Assembly (NCBI GenBank): GCA_016926235.1
Contig: JAFGOZ010000114.1
Coordinates: forward strand, 1 to 5,206
Reading direction: 5' to 3'
DNA length: 5,206 nucleotides
DNA from: Bacteroidales bacterium
GTDB taxonomy: Bacteria > Bacteroidota > Bacteroidia > Bacteroidales > UBA10428
Both the position numbers and the translations under genes were made by a program. Below the pieces are notes generated by a model that saw nothing but the letters and a program-made list of their open reading frames with translations, was not told the DNA's origin and ran no database searches. This document shows, piece by piece, positions 9 to 5,206 of the stretch (its first letter is position 1; each line of letters begins with the position of its first letter).

Positions 9-80
9 GGGCCCGTAGCTCAGCGGCAGAGCAGGCGGCTCATAACCGCTCGGTCGTAGGTTCGAATCCTACCGGGCCCA
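9..80 (+). tRNA. tRNA with CAU anticodon (Ile2 or elongator Met)
   Basis: A complete cloverleaf can be folded by eye. The seven-pair acceptor stem joins 9-15 (GGGCCCG) to 73-79 (CGGGCCC). The D stem is 18-21 with 29-32. The anticodon stem is 34-38 with 46-50 (one G-U pair), loop CTCATAA, anticodon CAT at 41-43. The T stem is 56-60 with 68-72, loop TTCGAAT. The discriminator is A80 and the next bases are CCT, so CCA is not encoded; this is common in archaea and some bacteria. A CAU tRNA can be initiator Met, elongator Met or the modified-C34 Ile2 tRNA that reads AUA. The anticodon stem lacks the three consecutive G-C pairs of initiators. The GGGCCC acceptor end makes Ile2 a reasonable guess, but identity is not settled. 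A decayed copy of its 3' part lies at 2759-2803. Confidence 0.96.
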
Positions 81-107
81 CCTGAAGGTTTATTGGTGGG
101 AAAATTT

Positions 108-119
108 TAATTATAATTA
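108..119. other. 12-bp AT palindrome between convergent genes
   Basis: TAATTATAATTA is a perfect inverted repeat in the 47-base gap between the tRNA and the convergent stop codon at 128-130. It follows a short A/T run at 101-108. It could help end transcription from either side, but such AT palindromes arise easily by chance in DNA of this composition. Confidence 0.25.
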
Positions 120-127
120 CCTTTCAT

Positions 128-1111
128 TTAGTAAAATTGAACTTTACCAATTTCTCCTTTATCCCAATCATCAGGAAAGATTTTAATATATTCTTTTACT
201 AATTTATTTGATATTTCTCCATGTTCACGTTTACAAAATCCTGACAAAATCCCTCTAAGGCCTAGATCACATACATATATTGTTATGTACCTCATTTTTT
301 TAATAAATTCTGAACTTGTGATTTCTATTCGATCATTATTGTCTTGTAATACAACTACATTTCTCTCTGGAATCCATTCAAAACCTTTGTGATGATTTCC
401 AACATTTCTTGCAATTTTGTAAAAGTTAGATAAATTACCTAATACAGGGAATAGAGGATTTTCTTTTGTAACATATCTCTTATACCACGAAATATCTTCA
501 GATGTTCCCCTTAAAAGATTGTCCGATTCACTCGGTGGAATTTGATTTATTACCTTAATAACACGCTTCACCACAAACATTATTCTTGGTAGATTAGTCT
601 CATAAGCATCTGTAATTGCCCTAAGTCCAGTTAATATGTGTTGTTTTTCCCTATCAACAACACGATCGTATAAGCTTTGCACCTTCAATTTCCACTCATT
701 TGTCATTTTACTTATATCCAAAAGACCAATAAAATCACTGGCCTTATTTAATTCTCTTTTACCAGTGAAGTATTTGACATATCCATTTTCCTTTGCATCT
801 TCAATTGTTGAGATTACTTCATCCTTTAATTCAAGAAGTTTTGTTTGTGCTCTAGATACCTCTTCTGCATATATTCTATCTAAATCAATACAATCTAAGA
901 CGTATTTAGTCGCAAATCGAGTTGCTGCTTGATAAACCCAATCATTCGAAGATATTAGAGGAATAACAACTTTTTCAAAGTATTCATGAATATTTTTTGC
1001 GATTTTAAATTCACCAATATTTTCCTTTAGTAGTTCTTCCTGGCGCTTTCCTTCTTCAAGTATTTGATCAAAATCTAGGCAGAAAAATTCATACGGTGTC
1101 ACGATTTTCAT
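128..1111 (-). CDS. Putative HEPN-domain protein (RNxxxH motif), possible RNase
   Basis: This 327-residue soluble protein has no signal peptide or membrane segment. I do not recognise it as a named family. The N-terminal two thirds (about 15-190) look mostly helical and charged. Residues 231-275 carry the best clue: RNVGNH at 235-240 (DNA 392-409) followed by a second His. This matches the R-N-x3-H signature of HEPN domains, which are helical RNases or nucleotide-binding modules common in toxin-antitoxin, CRISPR and abortive-infection proteins. The motif is followed by a probable beta-hairpin and a helix, as is common in C-terminal HEPN domains. The gene starts with ATG and has only a weak purine-rich stretch upstream (AAGAG on its own strand). 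It runs convergently towards the tRNA and is the first gene inside the putative tRNA-bounded island. It is apparently monocistronic, with no obvious antitoxin partner. The HEPN call is motif-based; the cellular target is unknown. Confidence 0.72.
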   Translation of the reverse strand: MKIVTPYEFFCLDFDQILEEGKRQEELLKENIGEFKIAKNIHEYFEKVVIPLISSNDWVYQAATRFATKYVLDCIDLDRIYAEEVSRAQTKLLELKDEVISTIEDAKENGYVKYFTGKRELNKASDFIGLLDISKMTNEWKLKVQSLYDRVVDREKQHILTGLRAITDAYETNLPRIMFVVKRVIKVINQIPPSESDNLLRGTSEDISWYKRYVTKENPLFPVLGNLSNFYKIARNVGNHHKGFEWIPERNVVVLQDNNDRIEITSSEFIKKMRYITIYVCDLGLRGILSGFCKREHGEISNKLVKEYIKIFPDDWDKGEIGKVQFY

Positions 1112-1265
1112 TGTTTTTTCTCTTTATTTTCCTAAGGAAATTTTTGTCAGAAACAAATTTGGAAATCCTTTAATCCCAAAATATTTTTTGATGAGATGTT
1201 CGTTTGTATAAGTAAGATCTCCTCAACTAATTTTACATCAAGGAATTATTCTCTATTCTGCTTAC
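1112..1265. other. Intergenic stretch without a recognisable gene
   Basis: This AT-rich gap separates the HEPN-like gene start from the minus-strand remnants. It must carry the promoter of the HEPN-like gene. A weak TATA-like run (AAAAAATATTTT on the minus strand, near 1180-1190) is the only candidate. On the minus strand just past the small ORF, a Val-Ser-Arg triplet (1257-1265) may be the decayed continuation of that ORF. I see no RNA gene or repeat here. Confidence 0.4.
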
Positions 1266-1388
1266 TCATATTACGATTGGCTCTCGAGGATTTTCATTTT
1301 GCCTTCCAATAACCTCTTCTCCATCTAGCAATAAAATTATCTCATCTGGCATAATAAATAAAATAATTGGAACATCAGAGAAATTCAT
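1266..1388 (-). CDS. Small ORF, 40 codons; possible FHA-domain N-terminal remnant
   Basis: This short minus-strand ORF has a credible start: GGAG at 1394-1397 lies five bases upstream of the ATG. Its ATG shares a base with the stop of the upstream HsdM-like fragment (TAATG), an arrangement seen in translationally coupled genes. The product begins MNFSDVP, contains the hydrophobic stretch IILLLDGEEVIGR, and ends EPIVI. The IGR triplet is followed, after exactly twelve codon positions including the stop, by VSR in the same frame. FHA phosphopeptide-binding domains commonly show IGR and a downstream S-R pair at about this spacing, so it may be a broken FHA domain. The match is short, and a chance ORF or a real small protein are the alternatives. 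Confidence 0.3.
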   Translation of the reverse strand: MNFSDVPIILFIMPDEIILLLDGEEVIGRQNENPREPIVI

Positions 1389-1439
1389 TACTTCTCCGGG
1401 TCAGCAATTCCCCAAACATAGCGAGAGAACTGGTTGCAT
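1388..1439 (-). pseudogene. Remnant of an HsdM-like N-terminus (type I DNA methyltransferase)
   Basis: Behind a strong Shine-Dalgarno is an ATG at 1439-1437. Its own frame stops after twelve codons. One frame over, at 1435-1391, it reads NQFSRYVWGIAD then PEK and a stop. HsdM, the methyltransferase subunit of type I restriction-modification systems, typically starts with a helix of the pattern N-x-(L/I)-S-x-(F/Y)-(I/V)-W-x-(I/V)-A-D, followed by LLRG. The fragment matches up to the Asp and then loses similarity. A single-base indel just after the start would join the ATG to this frame. This looks like the 5' end of a dead hsdM whose body is deleted. The match is only about twelve residues, but the two HsdR remnants nearby on the opposite strand support it. 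Confidence 0.45.
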
Positions 1440-1444
1440 ATTTT

Positions 1445-1506
1445 CCCTCCTTTTAACCCATTCATTCTTTTGAATAATTATTACAAGTTAATAACAACAA
1501 ATATAA
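1445..1506 (-). promoter_or_regulatory. Surviving promoter and ribosome-binding site of the HsdM-like remnant
   Basis: On the minus strand, AGGAGGG (1445-1451) sits five bases before the ATG at 1439, a near-ideal Shine-Dalgarno. Further upstream, TTATATTT (1499-1506) is a plausible archaeal TATA element about 60 bases from the ATG. The ribosome-binding site is clear; the TATA call is by eye and weak. Confidence 0.4.
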
Positions 1507-1523
1507 GTCACTAAAAACATTAT

Positions 1524-1648
1524 AATAATATTCATTGTGGTTATGCTCAACAAGCAAATAAGGTGGATAATCCCTAATGCAATCCAAAGAAAAGTCCTCC
1601 TTTCTCCGTTCTATCCTCAAAGCCCTTGGGCTTTCTTCTAAAGCGTAG
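1524..1648 (+). repeat. Degenerate direct repeat, copy A (pairs with 5067-5191)
   Basis: This stretch repeats the upstream region and first codons of the gene at 5116. Shared landmarks are AATAATATT (1524-1532 and 5067-5075) and GGTT-GCTCAAC (1539-1551, with two extra bases, and 5080-5090). In both copies exactly 25 bases then separate that element from the ATG. The first 23 codons match at 52 of 69 bases by hand count. Similarity ends around 1645-1650, where an HsdR-like reading frame takes over. Confidence 0.75.
1577..1648 (+). pseudogene. Truncated copy of the gene starting at 5116 (first 23 codons)
   Basis: The ATG lies ten bases after an AAGGTGG ribosome-binding site (1560-1566). It is followed by 22 codons and a TAG at 1646-1648. 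The peptide starts MQSKEKSSFLRSIL and matches the N-terminus of the gene at 5116 at 16 of 23 residues. A base appears lost near 1643-1646 (AAGCGTAG here, AAGCCGTCGATG in the other copy), which creates the stop. Nothing resembling the remainder follows; an HsdR-like start codon comes nine bases later. It is a dead 5' fragment, although the ribosome-binding site is intact and a short peptide could still be made. Confidence 0.7.
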
Positions 1649-1656
1649 GGTTAATT

Positions 1657-1824
1657 ATGGCAAATATTGATCTCAACGAACACCAGCGCTTTTATATCTC
1701 AGCTTCGCAGCTTCTTGTGAAGTTGGGATATCAGTGCCTAACCCCACAAGAAGAACTGGTGCTGCAAAGACAATGCTTGAGAACATCAAATTTCTTAAAT
1801 CCAAAGAAAACATACCATCAATAG
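1657..1824 (+). pseudogene. HsdR N-terminal remnant, copy 1 (type I restriction subunit)
   Basis: An open stretch of 55 codons starts at ATG 1657. Its first 36 residues include DLNEHQ, then SASQLLVKLGYQCLTPQEE and LVL. HsdR, the translocase/endonuclease subunit of type I restriction enzymes, commonly begins with a module of the form LNE...Q(I/V)PAxQLLxxLGYxYLTPxEALxLRGG. The fragment follows this up to the LTPxE-xxL block. It then departs from it: the Gly-Gly-Arg part is missing and the frame ends at TAG 1822-1824. Full HsdR proteins are roughly a thousand residues, so this is a small relic. It follows directly on the truncated copy at 1577-1648. After the divergence point, the frame read from 1752 gives RTGAAKT, a Walker-A-like string, but this is too short to interpret. 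Confidence 0.62.
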
Positions 1825-1860
1825 ATAATTCTCAATAGAAAAACTTGAAGGGAAATTTTA

Positions 1861-2475
1861 GTGACCAATATTCAAAAATTGTTCGATAAGGCACAGGATT
1901 GTCATAAATGCTTTGGGGAAAACCCTATTTATGTGCCCTACCCTGATCCGAACAATGCCCAGGAAACAGCTCAGATTATGTTCGTGAATGAAAGACCCGG
2001 GAGAATTGGAACAGGTGGTTCTGGACATGTGTCCTTTAATAATAACGATCCATCAGCTGAGTTCTTTAAAGAATGTTTTACTCAATTAAATCTTGATCGA
2101 AAACAAATTTTTATCACCAATGCATGTCTATGTCATCCTGTTTTCCCTGAATATAAGGATAAGGCTCCTACAAAAAGAGAAATTGATAATTGCCATGAAT
2201 GGCTTGGCAGACAATTATCAATCATACAACCAAAATTAATCGTTACGCTCGGTAGCATCGCATTGAAATCTTTGGCATTGTTTTTCTCTTCTTCTGAGCA
2301 ACTAAAGCATTACCAGTTAAAGAAGGACATTGGCAAAGTGATAAGTGACACAACACCATGGGTTTATCCCTTATATCACACCTCTAGGAGAGGCAGGATA
2401 AACCGAAACGCGGAAAAGCAAAAACTCGACTGGTTGAAAATTCCTTCTATTCTCGAAAAAATAAATCAACTTTGA
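1861..2475 (+). CDS. Uracil-DNA glycosylase superfamily protein, family-4-like with Fe-S cysteines
   Basis: UDG enzymes remove uracil from DNA and start base-excision repair. This 204-residue product (a usual family 4 length) has the core pieces in order: CHKC at 14-17; MFVNERPG at 40-47, in the place of the family 4 GExPG motif; F59 (HVSF), where a uracil-stacking Phe is expected; ITN at 85-87 followed by C91-H-P; C111 in EIDNC; a PKLIVTLGSIAL strand-helix at 124-135; and YHTS at 172-175, in the place of the usual HPS motif. C14, C17, C91 and C111 fit the four ligands of the family 4 4Fe-4S cluster. The Gly before the motif-1 Glu is Asn here and the HPS Pro is Thr, so substrate choice may differ. 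GTG 1861 is the start because a stop lies five codons upstream and the next Met would lose the CxxC pair. A purine-rich GAAGGGA at 1847-1853 serves as ribosome-binding site. Intact between two dead hsdR pieces, it may be kept by selection. Confidence 0.85.
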   Translation: MTNIQKLFDKAQDCHKCFGENPIYVPYPDPNNAQETAQIMFVNERPGRIGTGGSGHVSFNNNDPSAEFFKECFTQLNLDRKQIFITNACLCHPVFPEYKDKAPTKREIDNCHEWLGRQLSIIQPKLIVTLGSIALKSLALFFSSSEQLKHYQLKKDIGKVISDTTPWVYPLYHTSRRGRINRNAEKQKLDWLKIPSILEKINQL

Positions 2476-2506
2476 GTAAAAAACCTGTTAGGAGTAGAGA
2501 AAGTTT

Positions 2507-2742
2507 ATGGTTTTTTCAACTTGAATGAACAAACCTCCTCACAAGTTCCAGCCTTTCAGTTACTTTGCAAGATGGGTTATCATTACCTCACCACATAGGA
2601 AGCACAGAATCTACGGAATGGCAGACAGGGGGAAGCCCTAATAACCGAGGTGCCATATTAGAGCAAATGAACGATTACGAATATTAAGATAATAACTGCC
2701 AATTCAGTACTAGCAACCTGCAACAAGCTGTTAACACATTCA
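2507..2742 (+). pseudogene. HsdR N-terminal remnant, copy 2 (frameshifts and stops)
   Basis: This remnant begins at ATG 2507, with GGAG at 2491-2494, 31 bases after the UDG stop. The T run at 2511-2516 is one base short. Restoring a T gives MVFFNLNEQTSSQVPAFQLL followed by CKMGYHYLTT, the standard HsdR N-terminal module. A TAG at 2596-2598 interrupts it, then EAQNLRNGRQGEAL continues the EALxLRGG block. After about 2653 the frame shifts and AILEQMNDYEY is readable (compare ILxEQLxxxNxIEY of HsdR). Past a TAA it resumes with QFSTSNLQQAVNT, matching the FSEANIQxAI block. Similarity stops near 2740, where the tRNA-like sequence begins. At least one frameshift besides the T-run loss and two internal stops make it clearly dead. 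It differs from copy 1, so the two are not a recent duplication. Confidence 0.78.
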
Positions 2743-2803
2743 GCTGGCTGCTGTGTGACGGCTCATAACCTCGCGCTCTTAGGTTCGAATAATTCAGGGT
2801 CCA
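2741..2803 (+). pseudogene. Decayed 3' tRNA fragment, candidate attachment-site remnant
   Basis: Positions 2759-2803 align without gaps to bases 36-80 of the tRNA at the left edge, with 36 of 45 identical by hand count. CGGCTCATAACC (anticodon stem-loop) and TAGGTTCGAAT (T arm) are perfect and lie at identical spacing. The 3' end also matches (GGG-x-CCA against GGGCCCA). The acceptor 3' strand and T stem are broken by substitutions, so it cannot fold as a tRNA. A D-arm trace (CAGC-TGGC, 2741-2748) is possible; nothing matches the 5' acceptor half. A pyrimidine-rich stretch follows. A 3' tRNA piece in direct orientation downstream of the intact tRNA is what tRNA-targeting integration leaves behind. 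A decayed duplicate tRNA gene is the alternative. Confidence 0.75.
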
Positions 2804-3061: not shown

Positions 3062-5023
3062 ATGTTCAAGAAAGTCATTGACACCCTATTCGGAAAAAAT
3101 GAAGATCAGGAAACACAAAATAATCAGCTTATAACACGCAATAATGAGCCTAAAAAGACTGGACCTAATATTCCCAAAATGTTAAATTTGGATACGATTG
3201 ATTATTACCCTTTACCTCCTGCTCCTAGTAAATGGGATTCTAATCCCCAAGAGCCAATAACTTCAGAAGATGAATTGTTTGAAATAATTGATTGCATAGA
3301 AAAAGAAATTGCAATTACAAATACTCGGAAGTTGGACATGTCAGAGCGTCCTGATCCAGCCTATAAAATTACTATGCCCAGTAGTGTTGGATTTATCGAG
3401 ATCGATAAAAATGGAAAAGCTAAAAACTTACCTGGGTGTTCATCTGCTATAGCATTACGTGACAAAACAGGAAATTTCATTAAAGAAGTTGGTCTTGGTC
3501 ACAGCATTTATCGTATTGGTCTAGATCATTTTGCAAAGCATTTTGTTCTAATGGATAAGGAATCTATTTTACATGTATATAATGAAAACCTGGAAGAAAT
3601 TAGAAGTTTTAACTTGTCAAACGATCCTCGAATAATACAAATTAGAGACTCCAATGTTGATTTCTATGGTGATGTTCGGACATCAATTCGATGTATCGAT
3701 GTCAGTAGTGATGGTAACACAATACTTTTTACAATTGCCGATTCAGCATTTCTTATTGACTTATTTGGAAATACAATTTGGGCAAGATCAATGCCTCTTG
3801 GTGAGGGCTGGGTTCGTGAATTTATAAAAGGGGATCGAGTAGGTACCAGTCAAGAAGTTTTTATCGCTTTAGCATTTATGGGGTTGTCATTACCTGTAAC
3901 AAGAGAACAAATTCGGCTCCGATATCGTGAACTGTCCAAGCAATATCATCCAGATCTGAACCCGAATATTCCTGATCGAGGGGAAATGATGAAATCATTA
4001 AACATTCATCATGATGTATTGACTGGTATTGACTCAACCGAACTTTCAAAGAATCCGAACGAGCCACATTTAAACTACAGACGTACAAAGCCAGATTCGG
4101 TTGAAAAAATTAGATTTAAGAATAATAACGTTGAATATGAGTTATCATTTGAAATCAGCACAGGAGGACCGGCTTTGGATTGGATTTATGCTGCTGCAAT
4201 TTCTAATGAAAAGGATGGAACTTATTTAGGAACCTACTCAGGGAAAGTAATCAAATTAGATGCTAAGGGAGAGCCGGAATTTGCTCTTGATGTCGCAAAT
4301 GTTCCCCGAAATATAATTGAGGTCGATGATTATCTATATATTCTTACTGATACTCGTCTCTATATCGTTGATGAGGAAAAGGCCTTGGTAAATTTGATAG
4401 ACGTACACAATCAAGGAAAATTAGCGGTTAGTGCAGAAGGGTTTGGCTTATATGCCAAAAAATCTCTATCATGGTACTCGCCTACAGGCAAATTTAAATT
4501 CTCTTTGGCAACCAAACATCCTTTGCGTACATTTTATATAACAAATGGATTTATGGTTGTTGAGACTCGACAACACCGCGCATCTATTTCGATTGAGGAA
4601 AATGCAAAGATTCCCCATCATATTGGAAACGCTAAATCAAAAACGCCTGTAATAAACAAAGGTTCTGATAAGGTGAAATATGAAAGAGAAGCACAAGCAG
4701 AAGCTGACAATTTAGCCCCTGCAACTTTAGAAAATCTACCTGGCTTGAAGCGAGCTGGTCGTTACAATGAGGCTATTTCAATATTGTTGGAAAAGATTAA
4801 GATGGAGGAGAGGGATAATCAAATTAATCATTGGGGTGTCGCACCAGCATGGTATCACGAATTAGCAATAATTTACCGTAAGCAAAAGGATTATGAAAAT
4901 GAGGTCAAAATACTAGAGCGTTACATGGCACAAGAAAAAGCTCCTGGAGTAATGAAAGCTAGAATAGCTAAAAGGTTGGAAAAAGCTAAAATCCTTTTTG
5001 AAGAATCAAAATTAAACAAATAG
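3062..5023 (+). CDS. J-domain protein with beta-propeller-like segments and TPR-like C-terminus
   Basis: This 653-residue protein is soluble, with no signal peptide or membrane segment. Residues 1-60 are a short helix followed by a polar, Pro-rich linker. Residues 105-250 contain beta-rich repeats with SSDGNTILF and GNTIW, typical of WD40/PQQ-like blades. Residues 263-322 form a J-domain: a helix-II-like REQIRLRYRELSKQY runs into HPD (296-298) and then a MKSLNIHHDVL helix. Beta-rich repeats resume at about 355-512 (YLGTYSGKVIKLDAKGE, YLYILTDTRLYIVD). Residues 555-650 are helical with a TPR-like pair (AGRYNEAISILLEKI and KDYENEVKILERY). The HPD motif is what stimulates Hsp70 (DnaK) ATPase, so this is probably a co-chaperone that brings propeller- or TPR-bound clients to DnaK. 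The J-domain lies between propeller segments, not at the N-terminus as in DnaJ, and there is no Gly/Phe or zinc-finger region. Client and pathway are unknown. Confidence 0.85.
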   Translation: MFKKVIDTLFGKNEDQETQNNQLITRNNEPKKTGPNIPKMLNLDTIDYYPLPPAPSKWDSNPQEPITSEDELFEIIDCIEKEIAITNTRKLDMSERPDPAYKITMPSSVGFIEIDKNGKAKNLPGCSSAIALRDKTGNFIKEVGLGHSIYRIGLDHFAKHFVLMDKESILHVYNENLEEIRSFNLSNDPRIIQIRDSNVDFYGDVRTSIRCIDVSSDGNTILFTIADSAFLIDLFGNTIWARSMPLGEGWVREFIKGDRVGTSQEVFIALAFMGLSLPVTREQIRLRYRELSKQYHPDLNPNIPDRGEMMKSLNIHHDVLTGIDSTELSKNPNEPHLNYRRTKPDSVEKIRFKNNNVEYELSFEISTGGPALDWIYAAAISNEKDGTYLGTYSGKVIKLDAKGEPEFALDVANVPRNIIEVDDYLYILTDTRLYIVDEEKALVNLIDVHNQGKLAVSAEGFGLYAKKSLSWYSPTGKFKFSLATKHPLRTFYITNGFMVVETRQHRASISIEENAKIPHHIGNAKSKTPVINKGSDKVKYEREAQAEADNLAPATLENLPGLKRAGRYNEAISILLEKIKMEERDNQINHWGVAPAWYHELAIIYRKQKDYENEVKILERYMAQEKAPGVMKARIAKRLEKAKILFEESKLNK

Positions 5024-5066: not shown

Positions 5067-5191
5067 AATAATATTAAAAGGTTGCTCAACTATAGGGTAA
5101 GGTAAAAGATCAATCATGGCATCCAAAGAAAAGTTTTCCCTCCTTCGTTCTATCTTAATAACCCTTGGGTTATCCCCTGAAGCCGTCGATG
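5067..5191 (+). repeat. Direct repeat, copy B (pairs with 1524-1648)
   Basis: This is the apparently functional counterpart of the degenerate repeat at 1524-1648. It includes the shared AATAATATT and GGTTGCTCAAC elements, the 25-base spacing to ATG, and the first codons. Conservation of the non-coding part suggests these elements belong to the promoter or leader of this gene. Confidence 0.72.
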
Positions 5192-5206
5192 ACATCATTG
5201 AAAGAA
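5116..5206 (+). CDS. Unrecognised gene, N-terminal 30 codons only (runs off the window)
   Basis: ATG 5116 opens a frame that continues past the window end. The visible protein begins MASKEKFSLLRSILITLGLS and continues PEAVDDIIER. It is a helical, charged N-terminus with no signal peptide. AAGGT at 5100-5104 is a weak ribosome-binding site somewhat far from the ATG. The start and frame are supported by the degenerate copy at 1577-1648, in which the same ATG and 16 of 23 residues are kept. The N-terminus gives no secure family. A DUF2726-type protein is a faint impression that thirty residues cannot confirm. It lies 92 bases after the J-domain gene on the same strand, with its own conserved upstream elements, so it may have its own promoter. 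Confidence 0.7.
   Translation, partial: MASKEKFSLLRSILITLGLSPEAVDDIIER

Follow-up and report, generated by a model that had tools for sequence, protein, structure and literature searches.

Tycheposons are tRNA-associated tyrosine-recombinase elements that carry cargo. In the tRNA-gene islands collected in Islander (PMC4383910), the tRNA is regenerated at one end, a displaced fragment of it lies at the other end and accessory genes lie between. Cis-mobilizable elements (CIMEs) and the tandem accretion of integrative and conjugative or integrative and mobilizable elements are described as remnants without integration genes that keep their ends and are stacked at one site by later insertions (PMC5704250). 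The stretch of DNA analysed here, called the window, comprises 5,206 nucleotides (positions 1 to 5,206 of contig JAFGOZ010000114.1 in assembly GCA_016926235.1, labelled Bacteroidales bacterium). It carries an intact tRNA-Met (CAT) gene and, 2.7 kb downstream, a diverged copy of the 3' part of that gene at 2759-2803. The best overall explanation, held to be probable from sequence comparison, is a tRNA-Met hotspot of the Anaerolineaceae that receives serial insertions, with 2759-2803 as an old displaced end.

Like the Islander islands, the window has an intact target tRNA at one end, a displaced 3' tRNA fragment in the same orientation that is above chance, and accessory genes between them. It differs from these islands in that no integrase is detected in the interval, the far fragment lacks the half-site present at most fragments in relatives, and accessory DNA lies on both sides of the fragment. 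Membership among the tRNA-gene islands is incomplete because no integrase gene was found between tRNA and fragment and no empty site was found in relatives. The likeness to CIMEs lies in end-keeping remnants stacked at one site. The relatives of the window depart from both usual tRNA islands and CIMEs: their units are often small (about 1 to 3 kb, one or two genes), share a left half-site and have many T-loop hairpins. In the window, only the left end resembles this lineage, whereas the right end is without the lineage half-site; both ends of a unit are not in evidence, and no integrase of the local family was found.

The comparisons with Tycheposons and integrons are by description only. A tRNA-linked tyrosine recombinase and cargo are shared with Tycheposons, which occur in other phyla. 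As in integrons, small gene units stand in a row next to a landing site that stays the same, and some relatives have a recombinase close to it; unlike in integrons, the landing site is a tRNA gene and the recombinase lies inside the first unit. Among the matches listed, no description of tRNA-Met arrays in Anaerolineae was found in the open-licence PubMed Central literature.

The far copy of tRNA-Met and the DNA beside the tRNA

ARAGORN and Rfam find one tRNA only in the window, tRNA-Met (CAT). The initial annotation reported an ungapped repeat between 36-80 and 2759-2803, and this repeat is confirmed with 36 of 45 bases identical; a repeat tool pairs 36-81 with 2759-2804. When the remainder of the window is dinucleotide-shuffled 1,000 times and both strands are compared, the best match is 27/45 and the mean is 22. 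The perfect blocks are 36-47, on the anticodon stem-loop side, and 57-67, which spans the T-loop and the greater part of the 5' T-stem. Mismatches lie in the opposite, 3' strand of that stem, so the earlier description of perfect anticodon and T-arm blocks is right for the anticodon and half right for the T-arm.

The identity ends sharply at base 36. Bases 9-35 of the tRNA are identical to the in-register 27 bases before 2759 at only six positions. No tRNA 5' half was found before 2759; 599 of 1,000 shuffles do at least as well as the best local alignment there (to 2691-2758). The far copy is therefore a 3' fragment and not an evenly decayed tRNA, in agreement with the initial annotation, which had preferred a fragment to a decayed tandem tRNA. 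On sequence grounds it is most likely a displaced tail from an old insertion at tRNA-Met. A sequence model (A1, R1) was built on 18 fragments and run over 147 genomes of the family. The far fragment matches model R1 with 7.6 bits (E 0.009), at model positions 36-86 only.

The DNA directly after the tRNA resembles that of a small number of relatives. Window bases 1-98 are 98% identical to G009, a Brevefilum metagenome-assembled genome. Window bases 43-109 are 82% identical to a displaced site in G004, tRNA part included, and the post-tRNA DNA is 75.6% identical to a site at the start of contig C123 of G120. In a test anchored just after the tRNA, 4 of 17 comparators are equalled by none of 2,000 shuffles. 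These four are the tRNA flank of G009, two G004 sites and the G120 site, the last three of which were chosen after the likeness had been seen; 13 of 14 tRNA flanks do not stand out. In an unanchored local alignment the post-tRNA DNA scores 30 against a shuffle maximum of 35, so that unanchored likeness shows nothing alone. The G120 contig also matches DNA within the interval (window 1540-1644 and G120:C123:4858-4962, 79%), and the gene there is intact, with 240 amino acids (aa), DUF2726 and a zinc ribbon. Together, the post-tRNA likeness and this shared DUF2726 gene suggest that the left end of the window probably belongs to the same lineage as the G004 and G120 sites, and that part of the window cargo probably comes from the same stock as the G120 contig.

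Ten public genome records carry the exact 72-base tRNA; by title, six of them are Anaerolineaceae, two Brevefilum, one Anaerolineae and one Cyclobacteriaceae. The Cyclobacteriaceae record (JAGTVG010000030.1, locus L010) also matches window bases 1-81 at 99%, and its label is a probable binning error. The window matches 133 plasmid records, of which the best 20 match around the tRNA only.

Sites, integrases and units behind tRNA-Met in relatives

Comparison of the relatives supports tRNA-Met (CAT) as a repeated integration target. Further tRNA 3' fragments lie behind tRNA-Met in 11 of 17 relatives' loci (E <= 0.001). For example, they occur at +5.5, 6.3, 8.9, 10.3 and 13.5 kb from the tRNA in G001, at +5.4, 10.8, 12.1, 13.5 and 14.8 kb in G004 and at +1.5 and 2.8 kb in G008. 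Fragments are also present behind tRNA-Met in many of the 147 family genomes beyond these 17 loci. Among the matches listed there are 40 upstream-half sites, and 31 of these lie downstream on the contig and strand of the tRNA. Two are on the tRNA contig but on the opposite strand (G031, 29-30 kb away) and seven are on other contigs. Thus 31 of the 33 selected sites on tRNA-bearing contigs are downstream on the same strand. In an order-level scan, 25 of 301 drawn genomes have a match at 1e-8, with tRNAs and family members counted.

The left half-site reads approximately TATAGCC, five bases, GGAAT, nine bases, TAATCCGCTYGGTCG. Sixteen fragments were found through similarity to the tRNA 3' half only, and by eye 13 of them have the left half-site; those in G007 and G108 and the weak fragment G006+2810 do not. 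Because the model used to find later sites includes the half-site, its presence in them is not an independent result. Some sites (L064, L090, L091 and L102) keep the left half-site without tRNA sequence on the right. Where there is a right half, it is a tRNA 3' end, which is either plain or carries a short T-loop hairpin. By eye, about one third of 52 sites are plain, somewhat under half have a hairpin and the rest are without a right half. The hairpins occur in many displaced tRNA ends and are of at least two unlike sequence types (L064, L063, L061, L056, L057, L058, L090, L097, L101 and others). When 18 fragments are read as structured RNA, the consensus fold has four pairs and none shows a compensatory change; the hairpins are therefore described and not explained.

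In several relatives an integrase follows the tRNA. The one in G001, a tyrosine integrase (PF00589, 36.2 bits), is situated about 1 kb downstream of the tRNA and is accompanied by Rep_trans and HTH genes. Its relatives behind the tRNA in G036, G011 and G128 are 53-57% identical, with frames that end about 20-35 bp from the tRNA 3' end; the integrase of G128, where 3 kb of the contig were read, falls slightly short of the Pfam cut-off. A 40% identical relative is found in G112, and partial ones are found in G111 and G004. The integrase is accompanied by Rep_trans in G011 and by an ORF2/G2P-type Rep in G036. An integrase relative is present anywhere in 43 of the 147 genomes at E 1e-10, mostly not beside tRNA-Met. 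First units that contain a complete or partial integrase (G001, G036, G004 and G111) terminate in plain sites. Among ten proteins encoded at loci of this kind, Pfam identifies a short-chain dehydrogenase, a CAAX protease, a hydrolase, DUF2726 and a DNA methylase; of the remaining ones, two have sub-cut-off matches only and three have none. Scans of viral contigs, which detect close relatives only, found no half-site pattern, no exact 44-base tRNA 3' part and no confirmed relative of the G001 integrase or of the 327-aa and uracil-DNA-glycosylase (UDG) proteins of the window.

The distance between the tRNA and its downstream flank varies. An upstream flanking gene is common to 5 of the 17 loci. 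The downstream flanking gene, which by eye appears to be a membrane transporter, is found in 3 of 17 at 2.8 kb (G005), 4.8 kb (G003) and 17.6 kb (G001) from the tRNA. The next gene beyond the transporter lies 4.1 kb from the tRNA in G005, 6.1 kb in G003, 6.5 kb in G032, 8.4 kb in G031 and 16.1 kb in G009. Three further genomes have the transporter on a contig that does not carry the tRNA.

Three loci have arrangements of their own. L102 (G031:C1:2328159-2336125) contains seven consecutive R1 matches on the strand opposite to a tRNA-Met 27-35 kb away, with spacings of about 0.26 to 2.1 kb. Three of the seven are followed by the same non-tRNA sequence, and the sole tRNA in the locus is a tRNA-Leu. 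In L101 (G063:C139:3841-4037), an intact tRNA-Met is immediately preceded by another copy, whose 5' half is intact and whose T-loop holds a hairpin. In L089 (G087:C28:95750-101244), a displaced fragment lies between two complete tRNA-Met genes that are 5.4 kb apart.

Origin of the far fragment and extent of the inserted DNA

The proposed mechanism starts from the tRNA-Met (CAT) gene at 9-80 as an integration hotspot in Anaerolineaceae and relatives. Small integrative elements would encode a rolling-circle-type Rep and, close to the tRNA, a divergent tyrosine integrase, and the attachment site of the element would recombine with the tRNA 3' half. Insertion would restore the tRNA at the left end and move the previous 3' end rightwards. 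If the site were used repeatedly and integrase and Rep genes were lost, short gene-bearing remnants would remain in a row, with tRNA 3' fragments between them. Window positions 81 to about 112 would be the end sequence of one such lineage, and 2759-2803 would be an old displaced end, probably of another integrase lineage with a core that starts in the anticodon stem-loop. Fragments that begin near the anticodon loop are present in G015, G035 and G138, either on a different contig or at a distance of 38 kb from the tRNA; because they start as the fragment in the window does, another integrase lineage is a plausible author. The fragment, its boundary, the end-sequence likeness, and the hotspot with its integrases in relatives are observed; that the fragment in the window arose in this way, how old it is, which element it came from and each of the recombination steps are inferred.

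Integration at tRNA-Met is well supported by the relatives' fragments and integrases, the variable flank distance and the end-sequence likeness, and this part of the initial annotation stands. The other part, in which 9-2803 forms a single bounded 2.7-kb island that ends at 2803, is not supported. A number of results weigh against the proposed history. The conserved left half-site was not found at the far fragment in the R1 search of the window. The initial annotation had suggested a search for integrase fragments; for the local family, no trace is found in the window by a profile of 16 sequences (some duplicates) against 228 six-frame pieces or by tblastn at meaningful E; other integrase families were checked only via Pfam on four open reading frames (ORFs). 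The right flank of the window was not found in the 147 family genomes, and no empty site was found for the interval. The DNA after 2803 resembles none of the 17 flanks tested. In the relatives, no fragment was found in 6 of 17 loci (G009, G032, G121, G054, G030 and G115), several of which are short; G009, the flank closest to that of the window, has none over 19 kb. The DNA from the last site to the flanking gene is not conserved (0.3 to 4 kb), and little of the sequence immediately ahead of the transporter is common to the relatives, so the position of the original junction is not fixed.

It is possible, if doubtful, that the inserted DNA exceeds the window and that 2759-2803, instead of marking its far end, was left inside it by an earlier event and so does not bracket one unit; this reading is compatible with a displaced tRNA end. 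The lineage end sequence follows the tRNA, yet its left half-site is not found anywhere in the window, where the highest-scoring R1 match outside the tRNA and the fragment reaches 1.8 bits. Accessory genes also run to the window end, with a DnaJ gene and a second DUF2726-type start at 5116 beyond 2803. The right flank is unmatched and the DnaJ gene is rarely matched, so accessory DNA continues past 2803, which is not established as an outer edge. However, most sites in relatives are behind the tRNA on the same strand, as the ends of inserted units would be. A complete second tRNA-Met, tandem-duplicated or element-borne, that has lost its 5' half is a distinctly improbable origin of the fragment. 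Extra tRNA-Met copies do occur near the first in relatives, such as the two complete genes in G087 and the altered copy before the intact one in G063, but this origin needs a deletion or replacement exactly at base 36, where the match falls from 36/45 on one side to 6/27 on the other and the 5' half does no better than shuffled sequence. The T-loop sequence is common to most tRNAs, which would favour a chance or convergent tRNA-like sequence; the probability of this is negligible, as no shuffle exceeds 27/45 and the anticodon-loop block is also shared.

The serial-insertion reading can be carried further, to a tRNA-anchored gene-cassette system of the Anaerolineales of which the window would be a worn stretch. 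This extension is tentative and, as it stands, somewhat unlikely. The landing site would be the tRNA-Met 3' half, and the cassettes would be about 0.3 to 3 kb long, often with one gene. Their ends would be the shared half-site and a tRNA 3' end, the T-loop of which may hold a variable hairpin. A small integrase-and-Rep element would move the cassettes in trans and produce ordered, integron-like arrays without an integron.

From one worn repeat, the comparison leads to a mapped hotspot, a single tRNA gene at which small units of accessory genes would be gained and lost in the mostly uncultured Anaerolineaceae. The half-site and the T-loop hairpins form a searchable signature for such units. The wider system of interest is that of small serial units that end in tRNA 3' ends, some with T-loop hairpins, and it raises the question of how very short units move without a recombinase of their own.

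Genes of the window

Table 1. Features of the window, with position, strand and basis of assignment.
Feature	Position	Strand	Basis
Intact tRNA-Met (CAT), putative integration target	9..80	+	ARAGORN 9-82; Rfam 9-80, 71.1 bits
P' arm-like end sequence of a mobile lineage (probable)	81..112	+	Likeness to G009, G004, G120
327-aa cargo protein, mostly helical, HEPN-like at best	128..1111	-	ORF intact
Start of DUF2726/zinc-ribbon cargo gene, first 23 codons then stop	1577..1648	+	Likeness to G120 C123
UDG superfamily ORF, 204 aa, intact	1861..2475	+	PF03167, E 3.9e-22
Type I restriction R subunit, decayed N-terminal piece, one internal stop	2536..2658	+	tblastn
tRNA-Met 3' fragment from the anticodon stem onwards, with 20% divergence; interpreted as displaced attachment-site half	2759..2803	+	36/45 identity, sharp 5' boundary
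653-aa DnaJ-domain protein, accessory	3062..5023	+	PF00226, 30.8 bits
Start of second copy of DUF2726-type cargo gene	5116..5206	+	5085-5206 vs G120:C123:4864-4985, 83.6%

The gene content described by the initial annotation is recovered in part. The UDG-superfamily ORF is intact and a decayed piece of a restriction R subunit is present, while the 327-aa protein is at best a possible HEPN protein. This protein has 40 homologues, with a conserved R-N-x3-H motif and weak Csm6 and AbiV matches. The motif of HEPN proteins is R-x4-6-H, and the R-N-x3-H motif and the weak matches suggest at most a HEPN-like protein; no fold match was found at Foldseek E 0.001. The restriction piece matches residues 1-39 of an annotated type I restriction endonuclease subunit R (48.7%, E 6e-5) and a second record at 43.6% (E 2e-3). 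The ORF at 1657-1824 has no plasmid match and no Pfam match, and the three main window ORFs have no PADLOC match at E 0.1. In the 653-aa protein, the DnaJ domain is mid-protein and TPR matches are below the cut-off; its gene has two partial matches only in the 147 family genomes at E 1e-15.

Repeat D1 (1544-1644 and 5083-5183, 71% identical) flanks the tRNA fragment on both sides. Each copy contains the leader and the start of a DUF2726-type gene, which may point to two related cargo units that lie one after the other.

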